Source: a virus. Taken from it: 64,000 nt of DNA. Under the pieces are notes generated by a model, which saw only the letters and a list, made by a program, of their open reading frames with translations, was not told where the DNA came from and searched no databases. Below are positions 1,449 through 54,222 of the stretch, one piece after another (the stretch's first letter is position 1; every line of letters begins with the position of its first letter). The stretch is taken from the IMG/VR virus record IMGVR_UViG_3300017987_000071, positions 19,733 to 83,732 of that record. One strand, 5' to 3'. A program made the position numbers and the translations under genes.

Positions 1449-1919
1449 TCAACCTAAAAATAAATTCACCGCTTCTACAGGGTTTACACCCGCAGCAACC
1501 TGCTTAAAGCATTCCTCTAATCGCTGCTCTGCGCTTTCAGTCAGCGTAGTATAACGAGAACTACCACACTTATTACAACTGTAGTGCATTGCTTTTGGAG
1601 CACTAAGTTGCTCATGCAAACAATCAACACACTGCACCACCCAACCAGCAACACTCTCCTCCTTCTTCTTCTCAGTTTCAGGTGGCGGAGTAGTTGGCTT
1701 CTCAGGGGGTGTGTCTACTTTCTCAGCTTCAGGTTCAGGTTCTGCCTCTGGAGGCTCCTCTTCAATTCGTCTAGCGGTAATCTCAAACTGAGTGCCACAT
1801 TTTGGGCACTTTATTGTGCAAGCTTCGTTTAAGCGCCCAGTGCCCCGCGACAAATTAATCGCTTCGTCTAGGCTACATTCCCTTGCACAATCGGGACATG
1901 TATAACTTTTTGCTAACAT
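1449..1919 (-). CDS. Double zinc-ribbon protein with C-terminal tag motif, 156 aa
   Basis: Three parts are visible: an N-terminal four-cysteine ribbon (CPDCARECS, then CPKCGTQF), a central acidic Pro/Glu-rich linker (about residues 55-90), and a second ribbon (CVDCLHEQ, then CNKCGSS). The last 20 residues, ECFKQVAAGVNPVEAVNLFL, match the G-x-(s/n)-P tag shared by many proteins in this window. ATG at 1919 with a good ribosome site. A near-consensus promoter (1945-1973) lies immediately upstream, so this may be the first gene of a short unit ending in the prohead protease. I infer a nucleic-acid- or protein-binding factor carried with the head; no family name can be given. Confidence 0.7.
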   Translation of the reverse strand: MLAKSYTCPDCARECSLDEAINLSRGTGRLNEACTIKCPKCGTQFEITARRIEEEPPEAEPEPEAEKVDTPPEKPTTPPPETEKKKEESVAGWVVQCVDCLHEQLSAPKAMHYSCNKCGSSRYTTLTESAEQRLEECFKQVAAGVNPVEAVNLFLG

Positions 1920-1944
1920 AGAATGTCCTTTCGCTCTAAACTCA

Positions 1945-1973
1945 ATTCTACAAACCTACGCCCCGTCCGTCAA
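1945..1973 (-). promoter_or_regulatory. Sigma-70-type promoter upstream of the zinc-ribbon/prohead gene unit
   Basis: Read on the minus strand: TTGACG (-35), 17-base spacer, TAGAAT (-10), each one mismatch from consensus. It sits in a 62-base gap between 1982-2644 and 1449-1919, with the -10 about 25 bases before the ATG at 1919. Likely drives the leftward genes including the prohead protease. Confidence 0.6.
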
Positions 1974-1981
1974 ATAAAAAA

Positions 1982-2644
1982 TTACTTCACAACGATATTT
2001 CCAAGCATTTCCACTTCGGCAGGCACAGGCTTTTTCGCGGGCACATTAGCTTCTGGTTCAGTAACATCAACGGGTTCAGCCAATCGCGTGGGGGCTTGTG
2101 GCACCTTAACATCAGGGATAACTTTTTCGCAAGCAACCACCACCCAAAAGCGGATGTTTTGGGGATCAACCGTAATTTCGCCAGGAGCACCACGCAAATC
2201 ATCAGGAGATGCTGCCAACTTTGTACCAGGCAAAAAGGTTTTGATTTGTTCAACAAGTTGCTCTACAGAATCCTTGTCAGCAGTTTCGTTGATAAAAATG
2301 AACAGCACATCGAGGTTGTCATCAACCTCAATCTCTTCCAAATAATCCAATAGGTCTAAAGCATTCAGCTTCAGCATCACGCCATTAACCAATTCATCAT
2401 AAGACAACCTCGGTTTACCCTGGGTCAAGTCCTCCAAAATGGTCGACAGTGATGCCCCCTGAATCAACTGCTTAACGCTTTCCTCTACACCATCAGTTTT
2501 AGCAGCCTCTAAGCCAGCGATAAGCTTCTTGCCTTTATCGGTCATAAAGAAGTACCGTAGCAACTGCCTAAACTTGGTTCGATTTTGTCGGGTACCAACA
2601 GTCTGCAACCGCTGCTGGCGGTAATTCGGTCTTGGGTCACCCAT
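1982..2644 (-). CDS. Hypothetical protein with internal tag-like motif, 220 aa
   Basis: ATG at 2644 with GGAG upstream. The basic N-terminus (about 40 residues, YRQQRLQTVGTRQNR) is followed by EESVKQLIQGASLSTILEDL, which fits the window-wide tag motif (h..hh.G.S...hh.dL) but here lies about 55 residues in. The middle is acidic and rich in Leu/Asp. The C-terminal quarter has many Pro/Val/Ala. No catalytic signature found. The tag suggests it belongs to the same packaged-protein set as the others; its own function is unknown. Confidence 0.65.
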   Translation of the reverse strand: MGDPRPNYRQQRLQTVGTRQNRTKFRQLLRYFFMTDKGKKLIAGLEAAKTDGVEESVKQLIQGASLSTILEDLTQGKPRLSYDELVNGVMLKLNALDLLDYLEEIEVDDNLDVLFIFINETADKDSVEQLVEQIKTFLPGTKLAASPDDLRGAPGEITVDPQNIRFWVVVACEKVIPDVKVPQAPTRLAEPVDVTEPEANVPAKKPVPAEVEMLGNIVVK

Positions 2645-6091: not shown

Positions 6092-6183
6092 CTTTATAAA
6101 AGGGTCGTCCCTCCTAAACCATTTATCCTTAGAGGCCCTTTATAAAAGGGTCGTCCTTCCTAAACCATTTATCCTTAGAGGCC
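6092..6183. repeat. 46-bp tandem duplication at a gene end
   Basis: Two adjacent copies, 6092-6137 and 6138-6183, differ at one base. The right copy encodes the last 15 residues of the protein at 6129-6824; the left copy lies mainly in the gap before the next gene. Looks like a recent slippage or recombination duplication of the 3' end of that gene. Confidence 0.9.
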
Positions 6184-6824
6184 CATTGCTGCCAACCCTC
6201 AGCAACACCAAGCACCAAGTCCACTGCGCTAACTTTAGGTATTGCTAACCCTCTACGGGCCCAATCAGCAGCCATTTCATTAACCTCCTCTATTTTGGGT
6301 TGTATCCTCCTATTAAATTCAGTGAAGCCTCGCATATAACCAGTCAAAACACGATCCAATTGATTAAATGGACCCCCCTTAACCATCACATTCGGTTGTC
6401 TACGCTTCAACCCCAAAATCTCGCGCCGAACATCCTTATACTTTCGTTGCATACTAGCAAACACCTTTGACCAAGCATTCAACACTTCAATTGCATCATC
6501 TGACCAAGCGTATTTTACCTCATGCACCCAATCCAGCATCAGTTTGCCCAACGCTTTTATTCTACGCTCAACAAACCAAGTTGCACGCTCTTCGCGAGTC
6601 CCAACCCGCAACAGTTTACGAATGCCATTAAACAATTTACCCAAGTAATGAAAAATCTCTTGCACCTGAGCAGCCAGCATCCGCAATCCCCCGGACTGTA
6701 GAAAACTTGCCCAAAAATCAGGAGCAGTAAAGTTCTCACTTAGCACATCAGCAACTAGCGTTCTTGCTTCCTCAACAGGAGACCCGCCAGCAACTACACG
6801 ATCTACAGATTCTGCTATCTCCAT
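6129..6824 (-). CDS. Tagged basic helical protein, candidate internal head protein
   Basis: 231 aa, ATG at 6824 with AGGAG. The N-terminus MEIAESVDRVVAGGSPVEEA continues into RTLVADVL and matches the shared tag (h..hh.G.SP..hA..LV). The rest is predicted mostly helical and basic, with many K/R and W residues and no enzyme motif. Comparable N-terminally tagged basic proteins are at 11639, 20261 and 32748. By analogy with the small basic T4 internal proteins, I infer that it is packaged in the head. The gene end is duplicated downstream (6092-6183). Confidence 0.65.
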   Translation of the reverse strand: MEIAESVDRVVAGGSPVEEARTLVADVLSENFTAPDFWASFLQSGGLRMLAAQVQEIFHYLGKLFNGIRKLLRVGTREERATWFVERRIKALGKLMLDWVHEVKYAWSDDAIEVLNAWSKVFASMQRKYKDVRREILGLKRRQPNVMVKGGPFNQLDRVLTGYMRGFTEFNRRIQPKIEEVNEMAADWARRGLAIPKVSAVDLVLGVAEGWQQWASKDKWFRKDDPFIKGL

Positions 6825-10902: not shown

Positions 10903-11125
10903 TAGGGGTCTCCTGCATAAATGACCTGCATACCCGTATATCTTGGGAGTTGCCACACGCTGGGCAAATTATTGTCCCCTGGATCGGAGAATCCGCTGAG
11001 CGAAAACCTCTGTATGGTACCTGCACAATAACATTAAGATGCAACCTTTGCCCGCACGCACAGATCACATCGCCAGTGGTCTTCTGCTTTCCAAGTCTAC
11101 TCATCCTAACTACCTGCATACTCAT
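10865..11125 (-). CDS. Small zinc-ribbon protein, 86 aa
   Basis: ATG at 11125 with AGGAGG six bases before. Two cysteine pairs (CACG, then CPACG about 35 residues on) form a treble-clef or ribbon-type zinc site. Overlaps the start of the GT9 gene by 38 bases. No specific family. Confidence 0.65.
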   Translation of the reverse strand: MSMQVVRMSRLGKQKTTGDVICACGQRLHLNVIVQVPYRGFRSADSPIQGTIICPACGNSQDIRVCRSFMQETPNEDSCSTGIWNR

Positions 11126-11641
11126 ACCAAACCTCCTGCAAGCGCAAGCGGACTGCCACCTTCCAGTATTAAGTCTATTGTGTCACTTACGCTAGACTCT
11201 AAGTAGCGTTTTGCGGTTGCTTTTGGCTGGACGCCCATCCGACTCCAGCGATCAAGGTCTGCTTTTCTCAAACCAACATCCTCATAAGCACCACCAATCT
11301 GATGCGCTGTATTCAACGCTACGTTAATTGCCAACAACTTAGCAGGAATACCTTGCTTAAGACTAACATTAAGACGATCCACCGCTTTAGCATACACCAA
11401 ATTGTATTTCAAACGCCTACGATACACACCTTGCATAACATCACTCGGTTGCTGGTATCGCTTAACAGAGGCAACAGCAGACCCACTATACGGAAACTTA
11501 ATCTGTGCTATTCGAGCATTTCGCTCAGTTTGCCCTATAAGCCGTTATCCTGCACCCAACCTTCATGCTCCAACTCATAACGTAATTTCGAGTACCAAGG
11601 CTCCAGTACATATATCGCTTCGATATCTCGTCTAAGCGTCA
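11122..11641 (-). pseudogene. Broken member of the C-terminally tagged paralog family (internal deletion and frameshift)
   Basis: The 5' end (ATG 11641) encodes 33 residues nearly identical to the starts of the paralogs at 12226 and 14485 (R-D-I-E-A-I-Y-V-L-E-P-W-Y). The frame then jumps at about 11543 and hits a stop at 11534. The remainder, in another frame (visible as an ORF 11122-11436), encodes the matching C-terminal half: KFPYSGSAV, LLAINVALNTAH, RWSRMGV, ATAKRYLES and the terminal tag. About 140 codons of the middle are missing compared with 12226-13137. Either a decaying duplicate or an assembly artefact; the in-phase preservation of the 3' half suggests recent loss. Expression of the C-terminal piece from ATG 11436 remains possible. 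Confidence 0.8.
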
Positions 11642-12229
11642 TGCTATAATTCTCCTACGCAACTTCCTCAAATCCTGCTGCAATGCAACCTTACGCTCTT
11701 TGATGAAGCGAGTATCATAAAGCATATCCCGAAAGTCGCTCTCCACCTTCCAGAACATTTCGCCTTGAGCATACCCCTTAGCATCCAACCGCTCACCGGT
11801 ACGCTTAAAGCGGCCATGTAAACTAACCAACGCCCCACGCAACTTCAATGCTGACTCTATTACCTTAACAACATCAGCAGGCCTCGGAGGGGTTTTAGGT
11901 TTGCCGTTGGTGTAACCCAACGCACGAACTTGCTTAATCAAATCCGCTAACCACTCTTGCAACTTCTCAAGCCTTTCGCCGTAAGCATCAGCAAGTTCCT
12001 CAAACTCAGGGTCCTCAACGATCTCTCGCCGTTTGCGAAGTGCTTGGAGTTTACGACCCCAATTAGGTCGTCTTCGACGCCTGGCAGCATGCCAAGCAGC
12101 AGCCCCAAAAGCAGGCAAGAACTCCTCTAGGTTGGTAGCATTCACTAAACTCTCTGCTACCCCCACAGCAGATTTGCTAACCAGCAGTCCGCTGACCGCT
12201 TCTGCTATATTGTGTTCTGTTAGTTTCAT
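11639..12229 (-). CDS. Tagged basic helical protein, candidate internal head protein
   Basis: 196 aa. The N-terminal 30 residues (IAEAVSGLLVSKSAVGVAES, then LVNA) resemble the tag, with SK in place of the usual G-x. An Arg-rich stretch follows (ARRRRRPNWGRK), then DPEFEELADAYGERLEKL, which aligns by eye with NPEYEKVADKFWGQV in the protein at 32748 and KEYERLAKKAGREA at 20261. The three look like one divergent family of small, basic, all-helical proteins. Overlaps the neighbouring paralog start by four bases. Inferred to be packaged with DNA. Confidence 0.65.
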   Translation of the reverse strand: MKLTEHNIAEAVSGLLVSKSAVGVAESLVNATNLEEFLPAFGAAAWHAARRRRRPNWGRKLQALRKRREIVEDPEFEELADAYGERLEKLQEWLADLIKQVRALGYTNGKPKTPPRPADVVKVIESALKLRGALVSLHGRFKRTGERLDAKGYAQGEMFWKVESDFRDMLYDTRFIKERKVALQQDLRKLRRRIIA

Positions 12230-13137
12230 ACCATAGTCTCCACAAGGCTACCCGCCATCCGCTGGGGGCTAACACCATCCAAAATTAAGTCTATTGCATC
12301 TAGCACACTAGATTCAAGGTAGCGTTTTGCTGTCGCTTTTGACTGGACGCCCATCCGACTCCAGCGATCCAAGTCTGCTTTGCTAAGTCCAATTACCCCC
12401 CCAACACTCCAATTCCGATGCGCCGTATTTAATGCTACGTTGATAGCAAGTATCCGCTCAGGAATCTTACTCCCACTTTTGGATGCTTTATTAAGATAAT
12501 CCGCCGCTTTAGCAAAAAGCAAACTAAACCCATAAAGCTCCCGCCCTTCAGCACCCCCATAAAACCCCTGTAACGCTTTCTCTTGCCGTCTTTGAACTTT
12601 TTGCACTGCGCTTCCAGTATAAGGGAACTTCATTTGCTTAGCGCGCTCGTCTCTCTCAGTCCTTAACAAGCGATCCATACCACTCAAAAAGCGTTGTACA
12701 TGTGGGCCTGTAACTGTCCACCCATTATAATGGGCCCCACCAAAACTCTGCACAGATTTCAAAAAATCTAGTATAGGAAGCGTCACAAAATACAAAAGGC
12801 GATTCTTATAACTACCATACTCACCCTTTTGTGGAAAACACGGGTACGATAACCTTATAGTATCTGGAGCAAGAACCTCCAAACCAGTCAAATACAAAAA
12901 ATCCCAGTCATCAACCTTAGGAGACCCCAAATCTGGCCAGCCACCACGCCAAACACCGCCTAGCACTGTCGGCCCTAACCATCGAATAACTCGCTGCGTC
13001 AACCGATCAAGCGACCGCTTCAACTGCTCCCAAAAAACGTTGTCTTGTACCCACCCTTCAGTTTCATACTCGTATCGCAACTTGCTATACCAAGGCTCCA
13101 GTACATATATTGCTTCGATATCCCGCTTTAAACTCAT
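12226..13137 (-). CDS. C-terminally tagged paralog family protein (member A)
   Basis: 303 aa, ATG at 13137. Conserved blocks shared with 14485, 19060, 35859 and the pseudogene: N-terminal RDIEAIYVLEPWYSKLRYE, then GWVQDNVFWEQL; a central KFPYTGSAV; ILAINVALNTAH; RWSRMGVQSKATAKRYLES; and the terminal tag IDLILDGVSPQRMAGSLV. Between these blocks the sequence is variable. DNA identity to neighbours is visible in the C-terminal part (about 12310-12370 against 11200-11260 and 14560-14620), so the copies at 11, 12 and 14 kb arose recently. No known domain recognised. I infer a virion-internal protein family. Confidence 0.75.
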   Translation of the reverse strand: MSLKRDIEAIYVLEPWYSKLRYEYETEGWVQDNVFWEQLKRSLDRLTQRVIRWLGPTVLGGVWRGGWPDLGSPKVDDWDFLYLTGLEVLAPDTIRLSYPCFPQKGEYGSYKNRLLYFVTLPILDFLKSVQSFGGAHYNGWTVTGPHVQRFLSGMDRLLRTERDERAKQMKFPYTGSAVQKVQRRQEKALQGFYGGAEGRELYGFSLLFAKAADYLNKASKSGSKIPERILAINVALNTAHRNWSVGGVIGLSKADLDRWSRMGVQSKATAKRYLESSVLDAIDLILDGVSPQRMAGSLVETMV

Positions 13138-13146
13138 AACGATACC

Positions 13147-13851
13147 CTACCAATTCCAAACATCATTTGCTTCCCCCGCATCCATTCGCCGAAGGTATTT
13201 TGCTACTTGCTCTGGCTCCTTATATGTTTCCCAGTCAATTGTAACTACTTGTGTGCCCATATCCTCAACCGCAGGCAGCACAACGCCCTCATATACCGAT
13301 TGCAAATCGGCTAAATACTCAAGTTTTACTCCGACCTCATATTTGTTTTCACGCTCCCGCAATCGCTTCAGGCAGGTCGCTGGGGACGCTTTGAGATAAA
13401 TACAAAGGGAGGGGCGAGTTCTGCATATTCCCTCCATGTAAAGACGTTGCATATCCATATATGTCTTGTAGTCATCATCTTGGATGTAACCGTCATCATG
13501 TAGCAACTCAACAAATGCCCGATCCCCAGGCAAAGAGCGATCATGCAAGGTATGAACACGCACAGATTTGTTGGGGTTATTTGCTACTTCATAACCCACA
13601 CCATCAAAATGCTGCCAAAAGCGATCAGCAAGCACACGAAACTGCAAACGAAACGCATGAAAAGACGGTTTAACTTCATTAAGCAAATCAGCATAAAACG
13701 GTGTAAGAAACGCTGGACGCACCGTCTCAGCATAAACCTTATTGGGTTTAGCAGTCGGAACAACCGTCTTAATCTTAGCATTCAGATACTCAGCAAACGG
13801 TTTGATAAATGTACTCTTACCAACACCAATGCAACCCTCTACATAAATCAT
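13147..13851 (-). CDS. Deoxynucleoside kinase (dNK family)
   Basis: 234 aa. Starts MIYVEGCIGVGKST, giving the P-loop at residues 5-14. HDRSLPGDRAF (near residue 100) corresponds to the DRS/ERS motif of deoxynucleoside kinases. CLKRLRERENKYE contains the LID-type arginines. The family phosphorylates deoxynucleosides with ATP for DNA synthesis. ATG at 13851 overlaps the thymidine kinase stop as TAATG, so the two salvage enzymes are translationally coupled. The longer in-frame start at 13914 would run inside the kinase gene and is unlikely. Confidence 0.85.
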   Translation of the reverse strand: MIYVEGCIGVGKSTFIKPFAEYLNAKIKTVVPTAKPNKVYAETVRPAFLTPFYADLLNEVKPSFHAFRLQFRVLADRFWQHFDGVGYEVANNPNKSVRVHTLHDRSLPGDRAFVELLHDDGYIQDDDYKTYMDMQRLYMEGICRTRPSLCIYLKASPATCLKRLRERENKYEVGVKLEYLADLQSVYEGVVLPAVEDMGTQVVTIDWETYKEPEQVAKYLRRMDAGEANDVWNW

Positions 13852-14471
13852 TATGCTTCCTTTCCCTCTAGTGAACCAACATAACCTTGTTTGTCCACTA
13901 CAGCATGATAGCAACTACGACACATAGGAGCATACTCTGCCCCTTTCTCGACCTCAGCAACCAACTCAGTGCCCCCAGACAACCTATACGAGTAACGAGC
14001 CACGGCACCGCACAACTCACATTCCCCTTGCCGTGCTTTAAGCACCTCATCAGCATACATCGCTAACCAGGGAAGATTCTCAGCAGGTTTGCCGTTGAAG
14101 GTCACATCAAAACCAGAGACAAACACACGCTTGCCATACTGCTCGCTAAGCGTTAGCACCCCCACTGCCCGCTGCTCATCTAAAAACTGCACCTCATCAA
14201 TAGCAAACACATCATAATCATCCCGCACCCAACGATCCAAGAAGTTGAAGGTTGGTGGGACCAGAAAAGCATGATTAGTTTCCAGCACCATACCATCCCA
14301 CGACCGCACCCCCTTCTCCAGCAATGTCTTCTCCTTTACGAATGTTGCTATCTGAAAATAGCCAACTCGCATCTTCCTCCTCAGCAACCCATTCAACCGA
14401 GCCACCAGCATATTAGTTTTTCCGCTTTTCATTGGCCCGCATATAACCGTCAACCACTTATCTTTGTTCAT
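13851..14471 (-). CDS. tdk: Thymidine kinase (type II, TK1-like)
   Basis: 206 aa. The P-loop GPMKSGKT lies at residues 12-19 and the Walker B-like FAIDEVQF near 89-96. The substrate-side lasso/zinc region has two CxxC pairs (CELC 151-154, CRSC 184-187). Length and order match bacterial and T4-type thymidine kinases, which make dTMP from thymidine and ATP. Either of two adjacent ATG codons could start; the second has better spacing from AAGGAG. Directly followed by a deoxynucleoside kinase. Confidence 0.93.
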   Translation of the reverse strand: MNKDKWLTVICGPMKSGKTNMLVARLNGLLRRKMRVGYFQIATFVKEKTLLEKGVRSWDGMVLETNHAFLVPPTFNFLDRWVRDDYDVFAIDEVQFLDEQRAVGVLTLSEQYGKRVFVSGFDVTFNGKPAENLPWLAMYADEVLKARQGECELCGAVARYSYRLSGGTELVAEVEKGAEYAPMCRSCYHAVVDKQGYVGSLEGKEA

Positions 14472-14484
14472 CATAACTCCTTTG

Positions 14485-15384
14485 CTACACCAGCAGACCG
14501 CACACCGCGGTCCGCAAACTTTGTCCTTCTAAAAGTTGGTCTATCGCCCCACGAACACTCAATGACTCTAAGTAGCGTTTTGCCGTTGCTTTTGACTGGA
14601 CGCCCATCTTGCTCCAACGGCCAAGAATATCCTTATCTATATTCCATAATAAATCTGCTACGGAAAGAGTTTCATCCGTATGTACTGTATTCAAAGCTAC
14701 ATTAACTGCTAAAATACGACTTGGGATACGATCTCGATAACTTGCTTTCAACCTATCCGCAGCAACAAGCAACCGTACACCCGCATCCAGCAAATACTTC
14801 GGCATCGAAATACCTTTATACCACCGAACCTGACTAGATGCACTAAACTTACAACGATCTTGCACACTTACTAAACCACGCCTAATTATAGCAGTAAATT
14901 CCGCTAAAAACTTCGCACCAAGATACCAAACCAACTTTCCGTCTCTACGTTGTATAACATCTGGCTTCAATCGCTTAAACAATGCCACAACAGGATACAA
15001 AAATAACGGTGACTGCAAACGTTCTACGCGATCCCAGTTATCAATAACCTTTCTATAAAAAAGCGACACGGGTTGCTCACCCCAACCATATACATCAGGA
15101 TCAAAAAATACCCGTTTACCCTTCCAAATCAAATCCAACCCACCCAATAAATTCAGTGTATAAGCATCTAAATCAAAATCCTCGACCAACGCACCTATAG
15201 CATACGTCGCTAAACTCTCCGCTAAGGGTGGAATAACCCTCTTCGTTAATCGCTCCAGCGAATGCTTTAATTGCTCCCAGAAAACATTATCCTGCACCCA
15301 ACCCTCATGCTTCAGTTCATAACGCAATTTCGAGTACCACGGCTCCAACACGTATATCGCTTCAATATCCCGTTTTAAGCTCAT
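14485..15384 (-). CDS. C-terminally tagged paralog family protein (member B)
   Basis: 299 aa, ATG at 15384 with AGGAG. N-terminal block nearly identical to member A (RDIEAIYVLEPWYSKLRYE, GWVQDNVFWEQL). The central KFSASSQVRWYKG replaces KFPYTGSAV. RILAVNVALNTVH and RWSKMGVQSKATAKRYLES follow. The end is AIDQLLEGQSLRTAVCGLLV, with the tag stopping exactly at LV. The middle is unlike member A, so the ends are under stronger constraint than the core. Function unknown; see member A. Confidence 0.75.
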   Translation of the reverse strand: MSLKRDIEAIYVLEPWYSKLRYELKHEGWVQDNVFWEQLKHSLERLTKRVIPPLAESLATYAIGALVEDFDLDAYTLNLLGGLDLIWKGKRVFFDPDVYGWGEQPVSLFYRKVIDNWDRVERLQSPLFLYPVVALFKRLKPDVIQRRDGKLVWYLGAKFLAEFTAIIRRGLVSVQDRCKFSASSQVRWYKGISMPKYLLDAGVRLLVAADRLKASYRDRIPSRILAVNVALNTVHTDETLSVADLLWNIDKDILGRWSKMGVQSKATAKRYLESLSVRGAIDQLLEGQSLRTAVCGLLV

Positions 15385-15533
15385 TTCTTACTCCTATAAA
15401 TCCAAGCGACCTTGCTACCCGCTGGCAGCCAGCGACTTACAACAGTAGGCTTTAGGATGTAGGCGCTAAGCCCCATTGCACCGTGTGAATTTCCACTAAA
15501 GAATGGAACACAACGAGTTACGCTGGTTTGCAT
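15381..15533 (-). CDS. Small hypothetical protein, 50 aa
   Basis: ATG at 15533 with GGGAGG nine bases upstream. It ends in an ATGA overlap with the next gene and overlaps the upstream TylF-like gene by 16 bases, which is the normal spacing style in this array. Product MQTSVTRCVPFF... through ...GSKVAWIYRSKK is basic at the C-terminus with no recognisable motif. An mRNA hairpin (CGCTGG/CCAGCG) sits inside it. It fills what would otherwise be a 130-base gap. Confidence 0.55.
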   Translation of the reverse strand: MQTSVTRCVPFFSGNSHGAMGLSAYILKPTVVSRWLPAGSKVAWIYRSKK

Positions 15534-16186
15534 AGTGGTGGTCCTCCCAATTGCTCCCGGTTATGCTGCTTGCCTTTAACCCAATAAAGCCGACTATGCC
15601 CAAAGCGCTCCACCAGAGGGCGCTCAGCAATCTGGTGGACGAAATCGTAGAAAGCCCGCCTTGCCCCCTCCCAATGCCCAAAATCATCTATAACGATTAT
15701 GCCCCCTTGATGAACTAAAGGGTAAAACGTAAAGAGGGTATTAAGCACACTCTCGTACCAATCGCAGTCCACATGAAGCAAAGCTACCCGCTTAGGCAAA
15801 ACGTCCTCAAATGAGTCCTTAAACCACCCTTCTCGAATGACTACACGCTCCACTGGGAACTCTGCAATAGCCAGCGCTTCCATAACTCTCTTTTTGCTGC
15901 CTATTGCTTTACCAGCATAAGCATATGCTTCAGGGGTATCTTGGAAGGTAGGCATCGGTAACCCTTGAAAGGAGTCGTAAAGCCAGAGTTGCCTATCGCT
16001 TTTTGCAACCGGCAAGGAAAGAACAGCAGCCGACCCGCCGTCTCTAACTCCACACTCTACGATGTCGCCTGGGATGTGCCTGGTAACAATATCCTCTGAT
16101 AAATCGTAAAGCGTAAACAATGCTTCCAACGAACTAACAGAGTAAGCATTAAGTTTTTCAACCTTCATGTTATTTATGTAATCCAT
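15518..16186 (-). CDS. TylF/MycF-type O-methyltransferase
   Basis: 222 aa. IVECGVRDGGSAAVLSLPVA is the SAM-binding loop. LWLYDSFQGLPMPTFQDTPE is the highly characteristic D-S-F-x-G-LP segment of macrocin O-methyltransferase (TylF) relatives. LLHVDCDWYESVLNTLFTFY and GGIIVIDDFGHWEGARRAFYDF complete the family pattern, including the metal-binding aspartates. These enzymes O-methylate sugars. Ends touch the sulfotransferase gene, supporting a shared glycan substrate. Confidence 0.9.
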   Translation of the reverse strand: MDYINNMKVEKLNAYSVSSLEALFTLYDLSEDIVTRHIPGDIVECGVRDGGSAAVLSLPVAKSDRQLWLYDSFQGLPMPTFQDTPEAYAYAGKAIGSKKRVMEALAIAEFPVERVVIREGWFKDSFEDVLPKRVALLHVDCDWYESVLNTLFTFYPLVHQGGIIVIDDFGHWEGARRAFYDFVHQIAERPLVERFGHSRLYWVKGKQHNREQLGGPPLCKPA

Positions 16187-19059: not shown

Positions 19060-19995
19060 TTATACAATCTGGCATGCAACCACACTAGGCAGCACGCCCT
19101 CCACTATCATATCCACTGCCAGCCCTACGCTTTCTAAGAAGCGTTTTGCTGTCGCTTTAGGCAATACGCCCATGCTCGACAAGCGATTCAACAAACCATA
19201 AGACAACCCAATCTCATCTGCTACTGTAGTCTCCACAGCATAACCTCCATGCACAGTATTAACTGCCACATGAAAAGCTATTATACGCTGAGGGATGCTT
19301 TTGCCATACGCACGACTAAGCATATCTATAGCTTTAGCATAACGCAAATCACCAGCATTAACTTCCCCCGAACCTCGGCCTGTAGTATATTTCCTAATAG
19401 CTGCTTCAGCACTAAATGAGTAGGGGAACTGATGCAACTTGTTATTAGCAATCTCCGCTTTCTGCAAATAGCTTCTAAGCTCAGCATACAATCGCTTAGA
19501 AACATCCTTTGGCACATGATAAAAGCCATCGTCTCCCAACACCGCTGTATGCTTCATCTCCAAAAAGATGCGGCCTAACGGAATCCGCACGCCAAAAATA
19601 CCAAAATACCAATCATCATACAGAGCTTCTTCCCAAAATGCTGCACGACATACACGTTCATAATCCCAACCCTTAACCCCAAACACAAACTCGTCTCGAT
19701 CCCAATTGACCCCCCAATAATAAGTCTTAAGAAAAGCATGTACATTCACCCCCCAATGGTTGCGAGGCTCTACCCCATCGAGGTAAAAAGCATGGTAAGC
19801 CATATAGAGAGCCATCGTAGGAGCAATACGATCAAGCAACCTATCCAACGAGCGATTCAGTTGCTCCCAAAACACATTATCACTAACCCACCCCTCTCTT
19901 TCGTATTCGTACCGCAACCTGCTATAATGAGGTTCCAAAACATAAACTGCCTCCACATCCCGAGATATCTCTCTCCCACGCTTGCTTCGTTGCAT
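19060..19995 (-). CDS. C-terminally tagged paralog family protein (member C)
   Basis: 311 aa, ATG at 19995 with GGGGG six bases before. Blocks: SRDVEAVYVLEPHYSRLRYE, GWVSDNVFWEQLNRSLDRLL, the central QFPYSFSAEAAI, RIIAFHVAVNTVH, RLSSMGVLPKATAKRFLES, and the end AVDMIVEGVLPSVVACQIV. More diverged than members A and B but with the same layout and length. The protein again ends immediately after the tag's two hydrophobic residues. Confidence 0.75.
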   Translation of the reverse strand: MQRSKRGREISRDVEAVYVLEPHYSRLRYEYEREGWVSDNVFWEQLNRSLDRLLDRIAPTMALYMAYHAFYLDGVEPRNHWGVNVHAFLKTYYWGVNWDRDEFVFGVKGWDYERVCRAAFWEEALYDDWYFGIFGVRIPLGRIFLEMKHTAVLGDDGFYHVPKDVSKRLYAELRSYLQKAEIANNKLHQFPYSFSAEAAIRKYTTGRGSGEVNAGDLRYAKAIDMLSRAYGKSIPQRIIAFHVAVNTVHGGYAVETTVADEIGLSYGLLNRLSSMGVLPKATAKRFLESVGLAVDMIVEGVLPSVVACQIV

Positions 19996-20261: not shown

Positions 20262-20803
20262 CAAATGTCTCCAAACTTAACGTCCTTAAACCTCTTCTTA
20301 AGGGATTTCATAAGCACACCCAATGTTTCCCACTTAGCCTTAACATCCTCAAGATTGCTGCCTTCAATAGCACTCGGCAAATCTATATTAAGACTCTTAT
20401 ACTTATCCCAAAACGCTTGGTCGGCCCGCTCATAATCATCTTCCAACGCCAGCACCCCCTGCACCAAGCGAGTCTGGTATTCGGGGTCGCTTCTTCCACC
20501 CTTCTTAGCAAGTCCTTTAAGTTCCCTTAGAAAAATGTCTGCCTCACGCCCTGCTTTCTTGGCAAGGCGCTCATATTCTTTATGGCCTTTGACCCTGGGT
20601 CTCGTCGGCAGGCGACCAGCATCTCGAATCTTCTTGACTACCCATTCTGCAACCTTTCCAAGCGTCCACCCGCCCAGCGCAATTGCTCCTGCCCCCACCA
20701 AACCAATCTCATCGAGTTGCTTTTCGACGAGGCGTCCAGCGAGGTGCTTGGGGTTTTTGCCTTCCAGTACTTGATCCACACATGCACTAATTGCTTGATT
20801 CAT
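20261..20803 (-). CDS. Tagged basic helical protein, candidate internal head protein
   Basis: 180 aa, ATG at 20803 with AAAGGAG. N-terminus AISACVDQVLEGKNPKHLAG followed by RLVEK is a clear tag copy, ending in LVE, which also fits the (L/I/V)xE cleavage consensus of gp21-type proteases. Then a glycine/alanine-rich hydrophobic stretch (IGLVGAGAIALGGWTLG) and a basic helical domain with HKEYERLAKKAGREADIF. Similar to 32748 and 11639. Inferred packaged internal protein. Confidence 0.68.
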   Translation of the reverse strand: MNQAISACVDQVLEGKNPKHLAGRLVEKQLDEIGLVGAGAIALGGWTLGKVAEWVVKKIRDAGRLPTRPRVKGHKEYERLAKKAGREADIFLRELKGLAKKGGRSDPEYQTRLVQGVLALEDDYERADQAFWDKYKSLNIDLPSAIEGSNLEDVKAKWETLGVLMKSLKKRFKDVKFGDI

Positions 20804-32751: not shown

Positions 32752-33305
32752 TTAGGGATTTCCTTTCCTGCCCGCCCCAGCGTTGTCTTTACACCCTTAA
32801 CAGTATCCCGCACAAACTCCATCTTTGCCCCCATGCGAGCATCATGAGGCAAATACTTCTTAAGACGCTTTACCCGCGTCTCAACCTCCTTATAAAGATA
32901 CTTTGCTGTATTCTTCAACGTATCCAACCTTGTCCGTACTCTAGCAATCTCTTGGTCATCATGAGGATCAAACCCACCCTCAACCGATGCGGTATACAGT
33001 ACCTCCGCATCCCTATAAATCTTCTTCACTTGTCCCCAGAACTTATCAGCAACCTTCTCATATTCTGGATTGCCTTCCACACCACTAACTGCCCGTGTGA
33101 AATCATCTGCTTTATCTTTCAAATAGTGGTAGGTCTTATAAAGCGTTGTTGCCAACTTCCGATGAATAGTACGTGGGATGTCTGCTATCTTGCGATATGC
33201 CTTAACAGGCAAATCAAGAATGCCCTCATCCACCACAATGCTCTCTGCCAATTCCGATGGCAAAACGCCCTCAAGTATCAAATCTACTGCCTTAGACGTG
33301 TCCAT
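32748..33305 (-). CDS. Tagged basic helical protein, candidate internal head protein
   Basis: 185 aa, ATG at 33305 with GGAGG. The first 30 residues, including KAVDLILEGVLPSELAESIV, are one of the clearest copies of the tag. The rest is all-helical and basic (RKIADIPRTIHRKLATTLYK; NPEYEKVADKFWGQVKKIY), related by eye to 20261 and 11639. Same inference of packaging with DNA. It sits between heptose genes, so tagged genes are mixed freely with metabolic ones. Confidence 0.68.
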   Translation of the reverse strand: MDTSKAVDLILEGVLPSELAESIVVDEGILDLPVKAYRKIADIPRTIHRKLATTLYKTYHYLKDKADDFTRAVSGVEGNPEYEKVADKFWGQVKKIYRDAEVLYTASVEGGFDPHDDQEIARVRTRLDTLKNTAKYLYKEVETRVKRLKKYLPHDARMGAKMEFVRDTVKGVKTTLGRAGKEIPK

Positions 33306-35858: not shown

Positions 35859-36812
35859 CTATCCTACCAATAACACTACGGTACGAGATAAACTCATACC
35901 TTCCAACAAACAATTCACAGCATCCCACACCGAGATGCTTTCCAGATATCGTCTAGCGATCTCCTCTGCTGTATCTTTAACAGCAAGCAACCGCTTTAAG
36001 TATCCAGGTGTAATACCCGACAACGCTACACCACGATACCCAACCCCCATAATAGTCTCTAAAGCACCCTTTATTGCATAGAAACGATCATAAGGAGGTT
36101 TATTATATTCTTTATTCAAATCGTCCACCTTCGCAGCGAGAAGCGCATTCACGATGGTCAATTTACTCTTAGTGGACGCCAACGGATGATGGTACTTAAT
36201 ATCGTCAACCATCCTACTGGACCCACCATACGGGAACTCAAGTCTGCTACGAGCAAAAGCAAACTGCTCCTGAGTTAACTTCCATAAATACGGATAGAAC
36301 TTGCTACGAGCATACTTGGGGTTAAGCTTCCAACGCCCATCATCCTTAACAAACTCTAAAGCCTCAACGACCTTCCAAATGTCCAAGCGAGTAGACAACA
36401 CAGTACGAGTCTGAGGTAGATTTGCTTTAAGAATCGCACGCACATCATCAGCATCTCTAGCATCCTTGCTATCCAACGCTGACGCAAAACCTACATAAGC
36501 AGAAGCATCCGCATTGCGCACCCCTTTAGGAGCACGTAAACCAAAATATGGCAGCAAGAAAGTAATATGCTGCCACGGCTTCCACTGTGACGTAGCACTA
36601 TCCCATATAAGCTTCAGCATACCACGCCCCAAGATATCAGATACTCTCTTAGTCACTTTGTCAAATGATGTTTCAACACGCCTTAAAAACGACGCATCCC
36701 AAACCCAACCGCCACGCTCTTCGGAAGACTTTTGCTTCATGTACCAAGGATACAAGGCAAACAGAGCCTCTATATCCTTCCGAGGTAATACAATACGAGA
36801 TTCTAATAGCAT
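35859..36812 (-). CDS. C-terminally tagged paralog family protein (member D, divergent)
   Basis: 317 aa, ATG at 36812 with GGAGG. Recognisable blocks: RKDIEALFALYPWYMKQ, GGWVWDASFLRRVE, a central EFPYGGSSRMVDDI, RFYAIKGALETIM, LLAVKDTAEEIARRYLES, and the end WDAVNCLLEGMSLSRTVVLLVG. It is the most distant member, about 16 kb from member C. This shows that the family framework is older than the recent 11-15 kb duplications. Confidence 0.7.
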   Translation of the reverse strand: MLLESRIVLPRKDIEALFALYPWYMKQKSSEERGGWVWDASFLRRVETSFDKVTKRVSDILGRGMLKLIWDSATSQWKPWQHITFLLPYFGLRAPKGVRNADASAYVGFASALDSKDARDADDVRAILKANLPQTRTVLSTRLDIWKVVEALEFVKDDGRWKLNPKYARSKFYPYLWKLTQEQFAFARSRLEFPYGGSSRMVDDIKYHHPLASTKSKLTIVNALLAAKVDDLNKEYNKPPYDRFYAIKGALETIMGVGYRGVALSGITPGYLKRLLAVKDTAEEIARRYLESISVWDAVNCLLEGMSLSRTVVLLVG

Positions 36813-36823
36813 ACCCTATCCTC

Positions 36824-37483
36824 CTATAGCATATCTTGAATATGCTTCATTAACCACATCCAGAGTTTGCGGATAACCAACCACAATAGAATTACCGCTG
36901 TGTAACTAGCAAGCCACAAAGCCCCCATATGTGCTGTGACCAATATCCCCAAGATACCTAAAAGAGCAGGGACCGCCGTAGAAGAATCACCAAACATCAA
37001 CAATATCTTATTGATGATGCGTCGAGCTAAACCCTCACTGGATTTAGCCAATCCCATCTCCTGGTCCTCTATGTTCTGAAGGTAACCATCCACATCCTCG
37101 ACCTTCTTTTCGACTTCCTTCTGCACATGCTTGGGCGATTTCCTAAAAATACCTGTAACAGCATCCCAAATGCTACCTAGCATCCCGCGCTTCTTTACCT
37201 TCTCTGCTGTCCGCAAGATCGTTCTCTCCACTGCACGCTCAGCGGATGGCAACTCCTTACGAATTTTCTCTGGTTCAAGTTTGCTAGGGTCAAACTCTAT
37301 CCGAGTTCCCCGCAAGGTAAACTCACACAATGTTCCCTTTTCCAAACGCTCAATCGCCTGATCGACTAAACGATTAAAGCACCGCTCAAGCAAACGATCA
37401 AACGCAAAAGGATCAACTACTGCTTCAGCAACAGCATTAGGATTAACGCCTATGCTAACCGCAATCTCGTATATGTTATTCAT
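36824..37483 (-). CDS. Tagged membrane protein, 219 aa
   Basis: ATG at 37483 with GGAG. N-terminal EIAVSIGVNPNAVAEAVVDP fits the tag core (GVNP..h.E.VV). The middle is a charged helical region with RGMLGSIWDAVTGIFRKSPK. The last 70 residues form two membrane helices (ALLGILGILVTAHMGALWL and ASYTAVILLWLVI) and a basic end. Layout resembles the tagged membrane protein at 40287. If packaged, such proteins could act at the host membrane on DNA entry; this is inference. Confidence 0.62.
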   Translation of the reverse strand: MNNIYEIAVSIGVNPNAVAEAVVDPFAFDRLLERCFNRLVDQAIERLEKGTLCEFTLRGTRIEFDPSKLEPEKIRKELPSAERAVERTILRTAEKVKKRGMLGSIWDAVTGIFRKSPKHVQKEVEKKVEDVDGYLQNIEDQEMGLAKSSEGLARRIINKILLMFGDSSTAVPALLGILGILVTAHMGALWLASYTAVILLWLVIRKLWMWLMKHIQDML

Positions 37484-37509
37484 ACTTCTTACTCCACGTA
37501 CATCGAATA

Positions 37510-40213: not shown

Positions 40214-40308
40214 ACTTTCTCCTTTATGTAACGATAAGTAGACTCCATCAAATCAACTAACGAATACACCGCCACAAACAAGGATGCTACAGCAAACACG
40301 GCTTCCAT
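40192..40308 (-). CDS. Small membrane peptide, 38 aa
   Basis: ATG at 40308 with GAGGAG. MEAVFAVASLFVAVYSLVDL is a membrane helix followed by a charged end (TYRYIKEKVWSNRSG). Overlaps the genes on both sides by 22 bases, as is normal in this array. With 39959-40213 it forms a pair of tiny membrane proteins. Confidence 0.58.
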   Translation of the reverse strand: MEAVFAVASLFVAVYSLVDLMESTYRYIKEKVWSNRSG

Positions 40309-41252
40309 AATGACTCCTCGTATAACCAGGTTCTCAATTCCTTATCAAAAACACCAGGTCCCTTAGCAAGCACCCCTATACCAGCATCATGCACCGCCTT
40401 AGCAATCACAATACCTAAAGAAATGCCAAACACCGCCTCCAAAGCTATACCAGTAGCACCCAATAGTGAAGCAATAAATTTCATCATAGCAGGAAACCAC
40501 ATGTATGGACTAATTGGTGTAAAAGGGGGGACCAACATCAACACACCAATTACCATTAACAGTGGACTCTTATGAAACCGTAAAAATAGAAGATTAACTA
40601 CCCGCTTAGCCAAGCCAACTATAAAACGCCAAAGCGCTCGCAATATCCCATAAATTGCAGAGCCAATCTTCCCAATAATTGACCCTTTCACCTTTACCTC
40701 TAATTCCTGCTCAAGACGCTTTTGCTCCTGCTCCAAAGTACGTAATGAATGCTTCACAGCAGCAAGCAACGCCCTAACAATTTCGTCTGGAGAAGCATCA
40801 TTCGGCAAATTCAAACCTTGCTTAAACTCATTAGTAAAGATGAATCTTTGCAAAAACTCAGCAGCGTCTTGCTTAGTACGCAAATCAGGAACACCCATAT
40901 CCTTCAAGGTCTTCTCCACAGCACGCTCGACCTCAACAGCAGCGCCCTCCAAAAGAAGCACTTCCTCAACGAGATTGTTCAACGAATATTCGCCATGCAC
41001 CACAGCATTAACTGCTTCTCGCAAACTCTTCTCGTAACTTGTTTCATATAAAAAATCTGCTTGCATAACCGATTCCTGTAACGAATACCCGTAAAACCTA
41101 CAGCGCTTAGTAAGTTCTGGCAAGGCAGAAGCATCATCAACTTCAACAAAATCCTTGCCTGTGATGGGGTCTGCCCGCAATCGCACAGGCAAACCAGCAA
41201 CTACCGAACTAAGCGAAGCCGTAGGCTCCACAGGTACAACCTGAAGAACCAT
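40287..41252 (-). CDS. Tagged membrane protein, 321 aa
   Basis: ATG at 41252, one base after the upstream stop. Around residues 80-105, SLREAVNAVVHGEYSLNNLV matches the tag pattern, followed by EEVLLLEG. A helical charged middle includes KHSLRTLEQEQKRLEQELEV. The C-terminal third has two or three membrane helices (PLLMVIGVLMLVPPFTPISP; MMKFIASLLGATGIALEAVF). Architecture like 36824. Function unknown. Confidence 0.62.
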   Translation of the reverse strand: MVLQVVPVEPTASLSSVVAGLPVRLRADPITGKDFVEVDDASALPELTKRCRFYGYSLQESVMQADFLYETSYEKSLREAVNAVVHGEYSLNNLVEEVLLLEGAAVEVERAVEKTLKDMGVPDLRTKQDAAEFLQRFIFTNEFKQGLNLPNDASPDEIVRALLAAVKHSLRTLEQEQKRLEQELEVKVKGSIIGKIGSAIYGILRALWRFIVGLAKRVVNLLFLRFHKSPLLMVIGVLMLVPPFTPISPYMWFPAMMKFIASLLGATGIALEAVFGISLGIVIAKAVHDAGIGVLAKGPGVFDKELRTWLYEESLWKPCLL

Positions 41253-41253
41253 C

Positions 41254-42465
41254 CTAGAACCTGCTAGTTTCAGCAATCAATTGGCGCACAGCAAGAGAAG
41301 GATTAACACCACGCATAACTTTTCTAACAGCACTTTCTACCGCTGTTTTCTTCATATCAGCACCCGCAGGCAACGGTTGCTCACCTTCTACCTCTCTACC
41401 AGCAGAAGTTGACGCAGGATCATCCTTATCAAGAGGATCAGTTGTCTGCTCAGGACCCGGCACTGCGGTAGTAGTTTTAGGGTCAACAGCTTGATTATCC
41501 CCACCACCCTTAGTAGTCAATTCGTCAGCAGTAGGCGCAATAGGTGTCTTAGCACCCTCGTCCTCACCAAGCCAATAACCATCCCAATCATTTAAAGATT
41601 CCATCTCTGGTTCATCCTCCTCATCCTCTTCGGGGGGCAACTCTGGTTCTGGTTCTTCATCAGGTTCCTTATCATCAACTGGGTCTTCCTCTTCCCAAAT
41701 TACAGAATTCAAATAGTCCACATAGGACTCCTTCTTACAATCCTCCCCCTTTACATCCTTCTTACTTGCCTTCTTTTTCTTCTCTTCCTCTGCCTTAGTT
41801 GCCTCTGACTTCACCTCAAAAAGCCCATTGTAAATTGAATGTGACTCCACAGCAGCAATGCCTGGAGTAGTTGACGTTGTAGTAACCACAGAAGGAGTAG
41901 TTATCATTGGCGCTGTAGGCTCCTCATCTGGAACAACAGGCGCATCAACTTCATCACCAACCTTGGAAAGGTCCCCAGGGTGAGTGCTAACTACATTCTG
42001 CTCTGATGTAGGCATTACTACACCGTCAACTACTCCATGCGTATGAGTATAACTCTGTGGACCTGTAGCTGGATCGGTAGTACCATCACCATCCATATCA
42101 AGGTCAACATAATGAGTATGTCCATCAGCAGGATCAGGAGAAGTCACATAACGAGTAGTCACAACGTCAGGCAAAGTCTCTTCAAGTAAATAAGGAGACC
42201 TTGCAAAAAAAGACTCTTTCTTTTGACTGCCATTTACAGCAGCAGCAGTAACAGGAGTAGCGCCAACTTCGGGTGGAGCAGCCCCCTCCTTTTGAACTTG
42301 GTCTGTTGTCAATAGTACGATCTGGTCGTTGAACGGACCACTGCTAACACATTTCACCTTTAACTGGGTAGCCTCAGCGCCCTCTTCTCCTACTTCCACA
42401 ACAGAACCTCTCAACTGCAAACCGTCCTTATTAGTCCACAGTACAGAATCACCAACGTTTATCAT
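41254..42465 (-). CDS. Acidic low-complexity protein with C-terminal tag, 403 aa
   Basis: ATG at 42465 with GGAG. An N-terminal SH3-like stretch (VGDSVLWTNKDGLQLRGSVV) is followed by a His/Asp segment, GHTHYVDLDMDGDGTTDP and later YTHTHGVVDG, likely metal binding. Then comes a long Glu/Asp/Pro-rich region (about residues 230-300). The end VESAVRKVMRGVNPSLAVRQ followed by LIAETSRF is a strong tag copy that includes IAE, a possible gp21-type cleavage site. Acidic composition recalls T4 scaffold gp22, but the length and order differ; a scaffold-like or packaged role is inference. Confidence 0.68.
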   Translation of the reverse strand: MINVGDSVLWTNKDGLQLRGSVVEVGEEGAEATQLKVKCVSSGPFNDQIVLLTTDQVQKEGAAPPEVGATPVTAAAVNGSQKKESFFARSPYLLEETLPDVVTTRYVTSPDPADGHTHYVDLDMDGDGTTDPATGPQSYTHTHGVVDGVVMPTSEQNVVSTHPGDLSKVGDEVDAPVVPDEEPTAPMITTPSVVTTTSTTPGIAAVESHSIYNGLFEVKSEATKAEEEKKKKASKKDVKGEDCKKESYVDYLNSVIWEEEDPVDDKEPDEEPEPELPPEEDEEDEPEMESLNDWDGYWLGEDEGAKTPIAPTADELTTKGGGDNQAVDPKTTTAVPGPEQTTDPLDKDDPASTSAGREVEGEQPLPAGADMKKTAVESAVRKVMRGVNPSLAVRQLIAETSRF

Positions 42466-51805: not shown

Positions 51806-51819
51806 TAAGTCACCTCCTG

Positions 51820-52068
51820 TTACTTCTTTGGATGCTTCTTATAATACTCTCTCAACTCTTGTTGCCATTTACCTGGCTTCAAACGGCCTTGCTTAGCCAT
51901 ATTAACAGCAGCAGCAACTGCTCGCTGATGCCCATTCTTGTACTTCTTACCCCACTTCTCAACATTCATGAAGTAAGCAATCTTTGCACTAACCAAAGGG
52001 TTCTTGCGATAATCCTTAGCCTGCTCTATCAACAAGCGAGCGATATACAACCGCTCTGACTCTGGCAG
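51820..52068 (-). CDS. Small basic protein or readthrough extension, 76-82 aa
   Basis: From TTG 52050 the product is 76 aa (YIARLLIEQAKDYRKNP..., NGHQRAVAAAVNMAKQGRLK). The frame is open back to the TGA of the 717-aa protein (52069-52071) and in the same phase, so it could be either a separate gene with a poor start or a C-terminal extension reached by TGA readthrough (TGA followed by C). Coordinates given cover the open region. Basic, helical, no family recognised. Confidence 0.5.
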   Translation of the reverse strand: MPESERLYIARLLIEQAKDYRKNPLVSAKIAYFMNVEKWGKKYKNGHQRAVAAAVNMAKQGRLKPGKWQQELREYYKKHPKK

Positions 52069-54222
52069 TCAAGTTAAACAATCTTCTTTAGATTCCATAT
52101 GATACTTCGCCTTCAACTCCTCCAACTTAGCATCATATATCTTATTCAATTGTGCAATAGCCTGACGACGCTTCTGATCTATCCGAGCACGAGCGATAAC
52201 ATCAGCACCATACTTCTCTTCAGCAGCACGCGCAGCAGAGTTAACAGCCAATACAGACTGAAAATAATCTCGCTCAACGCCAGCCAACGTCCCACGATAT
52301 TGTCTTTCTAAGGAATTTACTTCCCTAGTATCTCGCTCAGCAGATCGACCAATCTGCGTAATCCAGTCCTTTACAACCTTAAACTTATCCGCCAACGAAG
52401 CCAAAAAACCAGTACGCTCACACAAATCTCTTATTGCCTCCACCACAATATGCTTTGGCACAGCACCCAACGACTCCTTAGTTATAGCAATACTAGGATA
52501 AGCAGCATGCACCTTTCGCTGAATAATCTTAACCAATTGCTCTAACGATCCCGTAAACCATTTAGGAGCATTATCATACTGCTTAACGCGAGCCAATGCA
52601 TTCCTTGCTTGCCCTATAGTATTTAGTTTAAAATGTCCTCGTTGATCCTTAACCTGTGGATGAGTATACGGAAGAGCATATTCGCCAACCCGTCTCTCGG
52701 CACTCTTTTTCAATGTCCTACCCGTTTTAGGATTTTTCAATTCTTGTTCAACCAAACGACTTGCCAATACCCTAACTGAACCCAGTCCTAACTTAACTGC
52801 CTCAGACACAGAAGCCTTCACTGTAGCAGGTTTCTTCTCATCGTCTTCATCATCAAACTCCCATTCCCACGGCACATCCCTACTAGCAACATTAGCTGTG
52901 GTAGTTGTTTCAAACAACAGCATATCTCGCATAAAAGACTCAAGCAAATCAGTACGCCCACCGATCTTCGACAAAATTGCTCTAGCCCGCGCAGCGCCAA
53001 ACGCACGACGCAACCACCAGGGATAAATCGTCAGCACCTGGTTCTTCGTAAGATCAAAAGACTTCCCCAACTGCCTCCACGCAGCCAAATACTGCCTATT
53101 GTCTATATCAAACTCATCAAGAAATGTGATAAACGTAGCACCATCAGCACTAAAGCGTACACCAGGTCCTAAAGTCTCACCCTTCTTGCCACCATAACGT
53201 ATATCCAAAACAGGACCAAACGTTACATGCTTATACCGAGTCCAATAAACACCCGGTAAGGATAAGATTCTCTTTAACTCCTTCATTCCCAAATCAACAA
53301 ACTGAGGAGCAACCTGCGTAACTCGCTGTCGCTTAACTCCAATATCTGGCAATCGCTCATGATGTTTAGCCCACGCATAACCCACCGAAGCAATCCCACC
53401 AAACTTTGGACTTGGGTGTGGCTTCAAAGCAGAATAAAGCAAGATGCGTTTAGACACAGGTATAGAAGTATAATTGCCCACAATATTGTATGATGGAGCA
53501 ATAACTGTACTCAAATAATCATAATACGGTGTCAAAGAAGCATCAATAACATCCATATACTTCTTCTCTACCTTCTTACCCTGGGCAACAAACTCAGGAG
53601 AACCCTGCTTAGGTTTACCTGCCTTAAGAGCACGAAGAGCATCCTCCGCTTCTCCAACCCACGAGTAGTCACTAGGAAGCAATTTATTCCAGGTAGACTT
53701 CCATCTACCCTTAGCATTTCTTACCGCTCGCGCCACTGACTGCCATGTTTTCAAAGCAGCACGATAAAACAAATCTGCTGCCATACCGGGAAAATATTTC
53801 TTTTGCCCCATCCGAACAGCATTCCAAAACCGCTTGCCTAGATTGACCTGCCAACGCTGGGTAGCAGAGTCAAAAACGATATAGTCTATCCCCATCAAAG
53901 AGTAATAAACCTTAATCTCCTCAGCACGCTCCTTTGCAGCCAACAACTTTTGCTCAGCATCCGCTATAAACAACAAAACCCGGTCCCGGAACTTAATGTC
54001 CTGGGGTCGGGGATTGGGTAGTCTATCAATCTGAAACACGATAGTCTTATTTTGCTTAATATCTGCCTTCAGATTGCTTATTTCTTCTTGTACTTGATCC
54101 CACTCAGGGCGACCATCTAACTGCACTTTGAGTCCACGAACTATCGAGCGATGCCACTTGCGGGCCTGTTGATAATAAGCATCATCGCTCGCTGTCCATT
54201 CTCTCTCAAGTAATAATTCCAT
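52069..54222 (-). CDS. Large basic virion/internal protein with internal tag motif, 717 aa
   Basis: ATG at 54222 with GGGGTGGAG; a possible promoter lies upstream. Long helical charged regions occur at both ends. The middle has strand-like parts (VTFGPVLDIRYGGKKGETLG). Near residue 465, VSEAVKLGLGSVRVLASRLV followed by EQELKN matches the tag, including LVE. It is preceded by an acidic stretch, DDEDDEKKPA, as if it were a domain boundary. If the motif is a processing site, the protein would be split into about 480- and 240-residue parts. No enzyme signature recognised. The stop is followed by an in-frame open region. Confidence 0.7.
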   Translation of the reverse strand: MELLLEREWTASDDAYYQQARKWHRSIVRGLKVQLDGRPEWDQVQEEISNLKADIKQNKTIVFQIDRLPNPRPQDIKFRDRVLLFIADAEQKLLAAKERAEEIKVYYSLMGIDYIVFDSATQRWQVNLGKRFWNAVRMGQKKYFPGMAADLFYRAALKTWQSVARAVRNAKGRWKSTWNKLLPSDYSWVGEAEDALRALKAGKPKQGSPEFVAQGKKVEKKYMDVIDASLTPYYDYLSTVIAPSYNIVGNYTSIPVSKRILLYSALKPHPSPKFGGIASVGYAWAKHHERLPDIGVKRQRVTQVAPQFVDLGMKELKRILSLPGVYWTRYKHVTFGPVLDIRYGGKKGETLGPGVRFSADGATFITFLDEFDIDNRQYLAAWRQLGKSFDLTKNQVLTIYPWWLRRAFGAARARAILSKIGGRTDLLESFMRDMLLFETTTTANVASRDVPWEWEFDDEDDEKKPATVKASVSEAVKLGLGSVRVLASRLVEQELKNPKTGRTLKKSAERRVGEYALPYTHPQVKDQRGHFKLNTIGQARNALARVKQYDNAPKWFTGSLEQLVKIIQRKVHAAYPSIAITKESLGAVPKHIVVEAIRDLCERTGFLASLADKFKVVKDWITQIGRSAERDTREVNSLERQYRGTLAGVERDYFQSVLAVNSAARAAEEKYGADVIARARIDQKRRQAIAQLNKIYDAKLEELKAKYHMESKEDCLT

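Follow-up and report, generated by a model that had tools for sequence, protein, structure and literature searches.

The window analysed here is a 64,000-nucleotide stretch of DNA that runs from base 19733 to base 83732 of a virus record of 83,732 bases (the whole record is termed G000), and the remainder of the record was examined as well, all open reading frames (ORFs) being mechanical gene calls. Left of the window lie genes for a major capsid protein of the gp23 type and for a gp21-like protease, the latter extending into the window, and then tail and baseplate genes. The N-terminal part of the gp21-like prohead protease occupies window positions 1..308 (-), as determined by PHROG 207 (E=3e-13) and by alignment with T4 gp21, while the whole gene spans G000 18613-20040 and encodes a 475-aa protein whose long C-terminal extension is rich in LxE. 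The T4 gp21 signatures GE-[LM]-x-HP and VSSRG are retained in all three of the head proteases checked by alignment. The sequence-only reading had placed a gp21-like protease at the left edge of the window, and the profile match together with these signatures bears it out, pointing to membership of the gp21 family of prohead proteases. The enzyme contains 21 LxE triplets against 7.3 expected by shuffling, and in three phages the protease ranks near the top of its own genome's proteins in LxE enrichment (21 vs 7.3, 23 vs 7.8 and 23 vs 6.8 expected); such enrichment would fit a core domain fused to the protease and cut to pieces as the head matures.

The capsid protein of G000 is distant kin of the capsid proteins of Bacillus phage SP-15, Listeria phage LIS04 and T4-like phages. 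Scans with this protein retrieved relatives including G2 (L004, 49% identity, 27.8 kb), G3 (L007, 42%, 166 kb), G004 (L030, 49% identity, 172 kb) and G005 (L032, 38%, 141 kb), whereas the portal protein alone as query found no relatives; G1 (L003) is the same virus (99.98%) and contributes no added comparative information. At the cut position of T4 gp23 the alignment places an LxE in each capsid protein compared (SFLTE in T4, AILME in G000, GHLLE in G2 and AYLLE in G3), which is consistent with a T4-like head module whose gp23-type capsid protein is cut at this site during maturation. Elsewhere in the window lie a caspase-domain protein at 28979-29794 (-) (Peptidase_C14, E=6.5e-30), unusual for a phage and with no tag seen, two sulfotransferase-like proteins at 16187-16981 and 30384-30920 (-), the first of which falls below Pfam's cut-off, a CTP-transferase-like protein at 32290 and a radical SAM protein at 4452.

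A short sequence tag recurs at twelve strong sites in the window, seven of them C-terminal, four N-terminal and one internal, and every one was detected by both position-specific profile and HMM. Among the C-terminal tags (a slash follows the E of the flanking site), that of ORF 1449-1919 (LEECFKQVAAGVNPVEAVNLFL; 1455..1520, -) is preceded by TLTE/S and that of the acidic ORF 41254-42465 (VESAVRKVMRGVNPSLAVRQLI; 41275..41340, -) by AVE/S, both being found by clustering also. YLE/S precedes the tags of the truncated paralogue 11122-11436 (VSDTIDLILEGGSPLALAGGLV; 11125..11190, -), of ORF 12226-13137 (VLDAIDLILDGVSPQRMAGSLV; 12241..12306, -) and of the paralogues 14485-15384 (VRGAIDQLLEGQSLRTAVCGLL; 14491..14556, -) and 35859-36812 (VWDAVNCLLEGMSLSRTVVLLV; 35865..35930, -), and FLE/S precedes that of the paralogue 19060-20022 (VGLAVDMIVEGVLPSVVACQIV; 19063..19128, -). 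N-terminal tags are carried by ORF 6129-6824 (IAESVDRVVAGGSPVEEARTLV; 6753..6818, -; then VLSE/N), ORF 11639-12229 (IAEAVSGLLVSKSAVGVAESLV; 12143..12208, -; then LEE/F), ORF 20261-20803 (ISACVDQVLEGKNPKHLAGRLV; 20726..20791, -; then QLDE/I) and ORF 32748-33347, in which the tag follows an internal Met15 (TSKAVDLILEGVLPSELAESIV; 33234..33299, -; then VDE/G). Clustering also recovered the tags of 6129, 20261 and 32748, and the tag of 20261 was additionally represented by a structure model. The internal tag, at residues 53-74 of the 220-residue product of ORF 1982-2644 (VEESVKQLIQGASLSTILEDLT; 2423..2488, -), was found by profile, HMM and clustering. The product of this ORF, encoded beside the protease, is a candidate head-core or scaffold protein; it has homologues in G2 and, by eye, in G004, and the G2 homologue has a tag-like stretch near the same place.

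The earlier reading had counted at least 15 tagged proteins, of which 12 sites are strong. The remaining three are a tag in ORF 36824-37531 (IYEIAVSIGVNPNAVAEAVV; 37415..37474, -), which is N-terminal if the start is Met17 and gives a weak HMM match with LLE downstream, an internal tag in ORF 40287-41276 (LREAVNAVVHGEYSLNNLVEEVLL; 40953..41024, -) with a weak HMM match, and a length-shifted internal tag in ORF 52069-54222 (SVSEAVKLGLGSVRVLASRLVEQEL; 52738..52812, -) with a weak partial HMM match. None of these is significant alone, yet all are among the next HMM matches after the twelve. Weak versions of the tag also occur on two ORFs left of the window, G000 13117-14082 and 15452-15943. At L002 12345-14082 (-), two neighbouring ORFs have a homologous domain in common (E=1e-7), and the second ORF has in addition a weak tag followed by a new domain, an arrangement suggestive of two cargo domains joined by an internal tag.

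The tagged proteins reduce to eight independent families rather than 15, because five of the C-terminal cases (11122, 12226, 14485, 19060 and 35859) form one paralogous family. The ORF at 11122, earlier described as a tagged pseudogene, is indeed a truncated paralogue that retains the tag, although it counts as a member of the 12226 family and not as an independent case. Over the first 51 residues ORFs 12226 and 14485 (12226-15384, -) are 88% identical; their central parts differ and their ends are alike once more, an arrangement that reads as a duplicated cargo gene with its centre replaced, 11122 being a truncated relative. The family had no match in PHROGs or in the phage records searched, and the fold predicted from 4 paralogues (pLDDT 63) matched no PDB entry at E < 0.001. 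No body homology was detectable among the eight families, and a search directed at the N-tagged proteins of the window likewise found none outside the tag, in agreement with the earlier statement that the remainders are unrelated between groups.

The position-specific profile was built from the eight independent tags and tested by leaving one out at a time. All eight were recovered at the place given by the earlier reading, at rank 1-5 among non-training proteins, and the N-terminal, C-terminal or internal positions given there for the twelve strong sites are upheld. The twelve proteins scored 17.5-45 on the profile, against a shuffled 99.9% quantile of 14.1 and a score of 10 for the next protein. 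With training members included, the HMM assigned i-Evalues of 1.7e-10 to 5e-7 to the same twelve sites and E = 5 to the next protein. Cruder motif discovery by EM, which was carried out first, ranked the tag top with only a small margin over shuffles and was therefore replaced by clustering seeded everywhere. Since the tags had been chosen by the reader, this unbiased search was seeded from every 18-mer of the proteome, with homologues collapsed and clusters grown under a strict threshold. The tag emerged as the largest cluster, with 8 families (one of which, the portal protein, is doubtful) compared to 4-5 in four shuffled proteomes. Shuffles ignore helicity, and the real proteomes of T4 and LIS04 (about 100 kb each) served as controls; neither gave a cluster above shuffle level.

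An AlphaFold model computed from the alignment of the twelve tags is a helix-turn-helix in which GKNP forms the turn (mean pLDDT 88.7). The tag DNA has diverged between copies; conservation therefore lies at the protein level, and the idea that the tag had spread as a DNA repeat was rejected.

Hydrophobic-x-E sites lie beside the tags on the cargo side. They were found within 17 residues before all seven strong C-terminal tags and within 15 residues after all four strong N-terminal tags of the window, against a background per flank of 0.30-0.34; the pattern was spotted first and tested afterwards. The C-terminal flanks TLTE, YLE, FLE and AVE each have S directly after, and the N-terminal flanks are VLSE, QLDE, VDE and LEE. 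T4 gp21 cleaves after L/I-x-E (PMC9026906), and several of the window flanks are not strictly of the [LI]xE kind, as seen in YLE/FLE of the 12226 family and AVE of 41254. At the in-tag site, some window tags have lost the E (VAAG, VMRG, LIQG and VVAG). In G004, [LIVM]xE occurs at columns 8-11 in 22 of the 24 N-terminal tags, compared to 10.5% of random 8-mers from the same proteome, the E being part of the seed motif. On these patterns the tag appears to carry, or to be bounded by, a site of the prohead-protease type, with Y, F, V or A partly standing in for L/I in the window.

The motif search that the earlier reading had called for across the record and its relatives was extended to the capsid-scan genomes, and tag clusters were found in the window phage, G004 and G005. 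G004 uses a short form, MxxFEQAVxxLxE (for example MDIFEQAVDRLLET), at 24 protein N-termini, the end used in T4, and 2 C-termini, compared to the mixed placement in the window. Clustering seeded everywhere grouped 20 unrelated G004 families (shuffles, at most 6) and, in G005, 10 families (shuffles, 5) sharing a third version, VERIVExLLxE; in G3 (42% capsid identity) it gave only zinc-ribbon clusters and no such tag cluster. A shared short sequence on proteins with unrelated remainders thus recurs in 8 families of the window and 20 of G004, as judged from the predicted proteins. The two versions also recognise each other: over the first 11 columns of the window profile and in fixed register, the window profile gave scores above 6.3 (the 99.9% quantile of the null) to 10 of 13 G004 seeds, and the G004 profile gave scores above 4.9 to 6 of 8 window tags, recognition in both directions being mostly beyond the 99.9% quantile. 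From this reciprocal recognition, the window tag reads as the G004 tag plus a second helix. Acidic proteins similar in character to that of ORF 41254 end in the long tag in G2 and G004 (VNDALHLVHRGADPSMLASRLL; LERAVKLIERGANPHKLAARVL), and the best BLASTP match between 41254 and the G2 protein is the tag; L033 contains IDALVEQVAQGADPKKVVESAV internally. Many of the tagged G004 genes fall in a region from about 100 to 131 kb that surrounds the capsid gene (115-117 kb).

The internal proteins of phage T4, IPI-III and Alt, are conserved only in a capsid-targeting sequence (CTS) of about ten residues (PMC3012670), which keeps them on the prohead core until it is removed by gp21 (PMC9026906, PMC3012670). 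As in T4, a short sequence is found here on unrelated cargo, with or beside an [L/I]-x-E site, together with a gp21-family protease and a gp23-type capsid protein that has LxE at the same cut position. The sequence itself, however, is unrelated to the T4 CTS by profile, and the window form is longer (helix-GxxP-helix) and often C-terminal or internal. IPI, IPII and IPIII of T4 scored below zero on the window profile and the T4 CTS (MKTYQEFIAE) was not recognised; the likeness to T4 is therefore one of architecture and cut site, not of homology. Similarity to the T4 CTS is no requirement among T4-like phages, though it would have proved descent. The breadth differs too, with at least 8 families in the window phage and about 20 in G004 against a handful of T4 internal proteins. 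T4 gp22 and gp67 were also considered as carriers of the tag and found no support, gp22 scoring 7.2, near the 95% null. In marine T4-like phages, the gp22-like scaffold genes upstream of the capsid gene (L063, L100, L077 and L044) often encode xKEAVDNLLEQ or xIKEAVDNLLEQ near residue 36. Stretches of these scaffold proteins resemble the tag core at p 0.003-0.04 each, a likeness that is only suggestive since the scaffold proteins are mutually homologous.

T4 Alt also loses a C-terminal propeptide, of 63 residues, at LTE-619 (PMC5694885), and in comparable fashion TLTE stands ahead of the C-terminal tag in window ORF 1449. What the Alt propeptide does in T4 is not established (PMC5694885), whereas in the window phage the same motif is used at both ends of proteins, which suggests targeting. 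A short terminal stretch is involved as it is with DarB of phage P1, in which no more than 30 N-terminal residues send the large protein, or a reporter, into the head; BLAST gave no N-terminal consensus among the P1 Dar proteins (PMC9024508), unlike the shared consensus of the window phage. SPN3US and phiKZ similarly have many inner head proteins with propeptides cut by the prohead protease (A-x-E, with serine preferred after the cut), but most of these propeptides exceed 100 residues, and no short tag common to the proteins is described (PMC5694885, PMC10052503). In the capsid-targeting literature covered, with subscription journals largely outside it, no comparable shared tag set is reported.

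Three other explanations were weighed. That the motif is a chance or compositional resemblance of ordinary amphipathic helices at protein ends could draw on its simple, heptad-like core, on the small margin of the crude motif discovery and on the loss of helicity in shuffles. It is hardly credible given leave-one-out detection, clusters of 8 families against at most 5 in the window phage and 20 against at most 6 in G004, the behaviour of the T4 and LIS04 proteomes, and the recognition of each phage's tags by the other's profile. Slightly less remote, though still very improbable, is a degron read by a host or phage protease and setting protein levels: many tags do sit at the extreme C-terminus with hydrophobic last residues, but the same motif is also N-terminal and internal, and the LxE sites in or beside it fit the phage's own head protease.

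A docking helix for some other partner (the replication factory, the membrane, a host protein or the tail), through which tagged proteins would meet in the cell without being packaged, would suit the location of the window's tagged genes, which sit among nucleotide-metabolism and DNA-handling genes and not solely beside head genes. The tags, however, end in or adjoin sites that fit the head protease, many tagged G004 genes surround the head genes, and the candidate core protein encoded by ORF 1982, next to the protease, is itself tagged; this account is considered unlikely. The tag is very probably a T4-type signal for capsid targeting and processing, which would dock proteins on the core, be cleaved by the gp21-like protease and leave the cargo retained in the head for ejection into the host. 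The protease, the LxE of the capsid protein, the flanking sites, the tags of relatives and the T4 precedents all support this reading, as had been proposed from the sequence alone, with packaging and removal of the tag as its expected consequences.

A short amphipathic helix (core AVDxLLE), here with a GxxP turn and a second helix, would dock cargo onto the prohead core during assembly, and the ORF 1982 protein, itself tagged and with homologues in G2 and G004, is a candidate docking partner. Within the prohead, the gp21-like protease would cut after hydrophobic-x-E sites beside or inside the tag. As the cut would free cargo from the core, the cargo would remain with the DNA in the head and could be ejected into the host. 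Because the tag would be a hairpin complete in itself, with its cut site lying towards the cargo, it could be placed at the N-terminus, at the C-terminus or between domains. The window phage, like at least two distantly related phages that have versions of their own, places the tag on twelve or more proteins that are otherwise unrelated, where it probably serves as an address label for the head. An evenly balanced proposition is a wider one, in which the tag is a portable, position-independent head-loading module, namely a detachable helical hairpin that copies a head-core motif and is borne by dozens of unrelated effectors, with internally tagged precursors releasing cargo on each side and each lineage having its own version of tag and cut site.

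By virtue of the tag, dozens of anonymous small phage genes become predicted head cargo, likely to be effectors of host takeover or anti-defence, and a rule based on the genome only would be available for listing injected proteins in T4-like phages without database homologues. Capsid targeting from the C-terminus or mid-protein, a question dating from the C-terminal propeptide loss of T4 Alt, becomes testable, and new loading tags may be offered for protein delivery by phage heads. Among the tagged G004 proteins, the product of 128014-128397 (L118 8014-8397, -) has a by-eye likeness to ADP-ribosyltransferases (YHAT...GVYASSS) for which database searches gave no support; that identity, if true, would parallel T4 Alt. 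The tagged protein encoded at G004 99827-100906 (L116/L117, -) has a twin-arginine-like stretch, RRKFLGMMGAGA, directly after its tag and a second tag at residue 220, and the tagged G004 protein at L119 9511-10092 (-) is a member of DUF5662 (E=2.6e-28).
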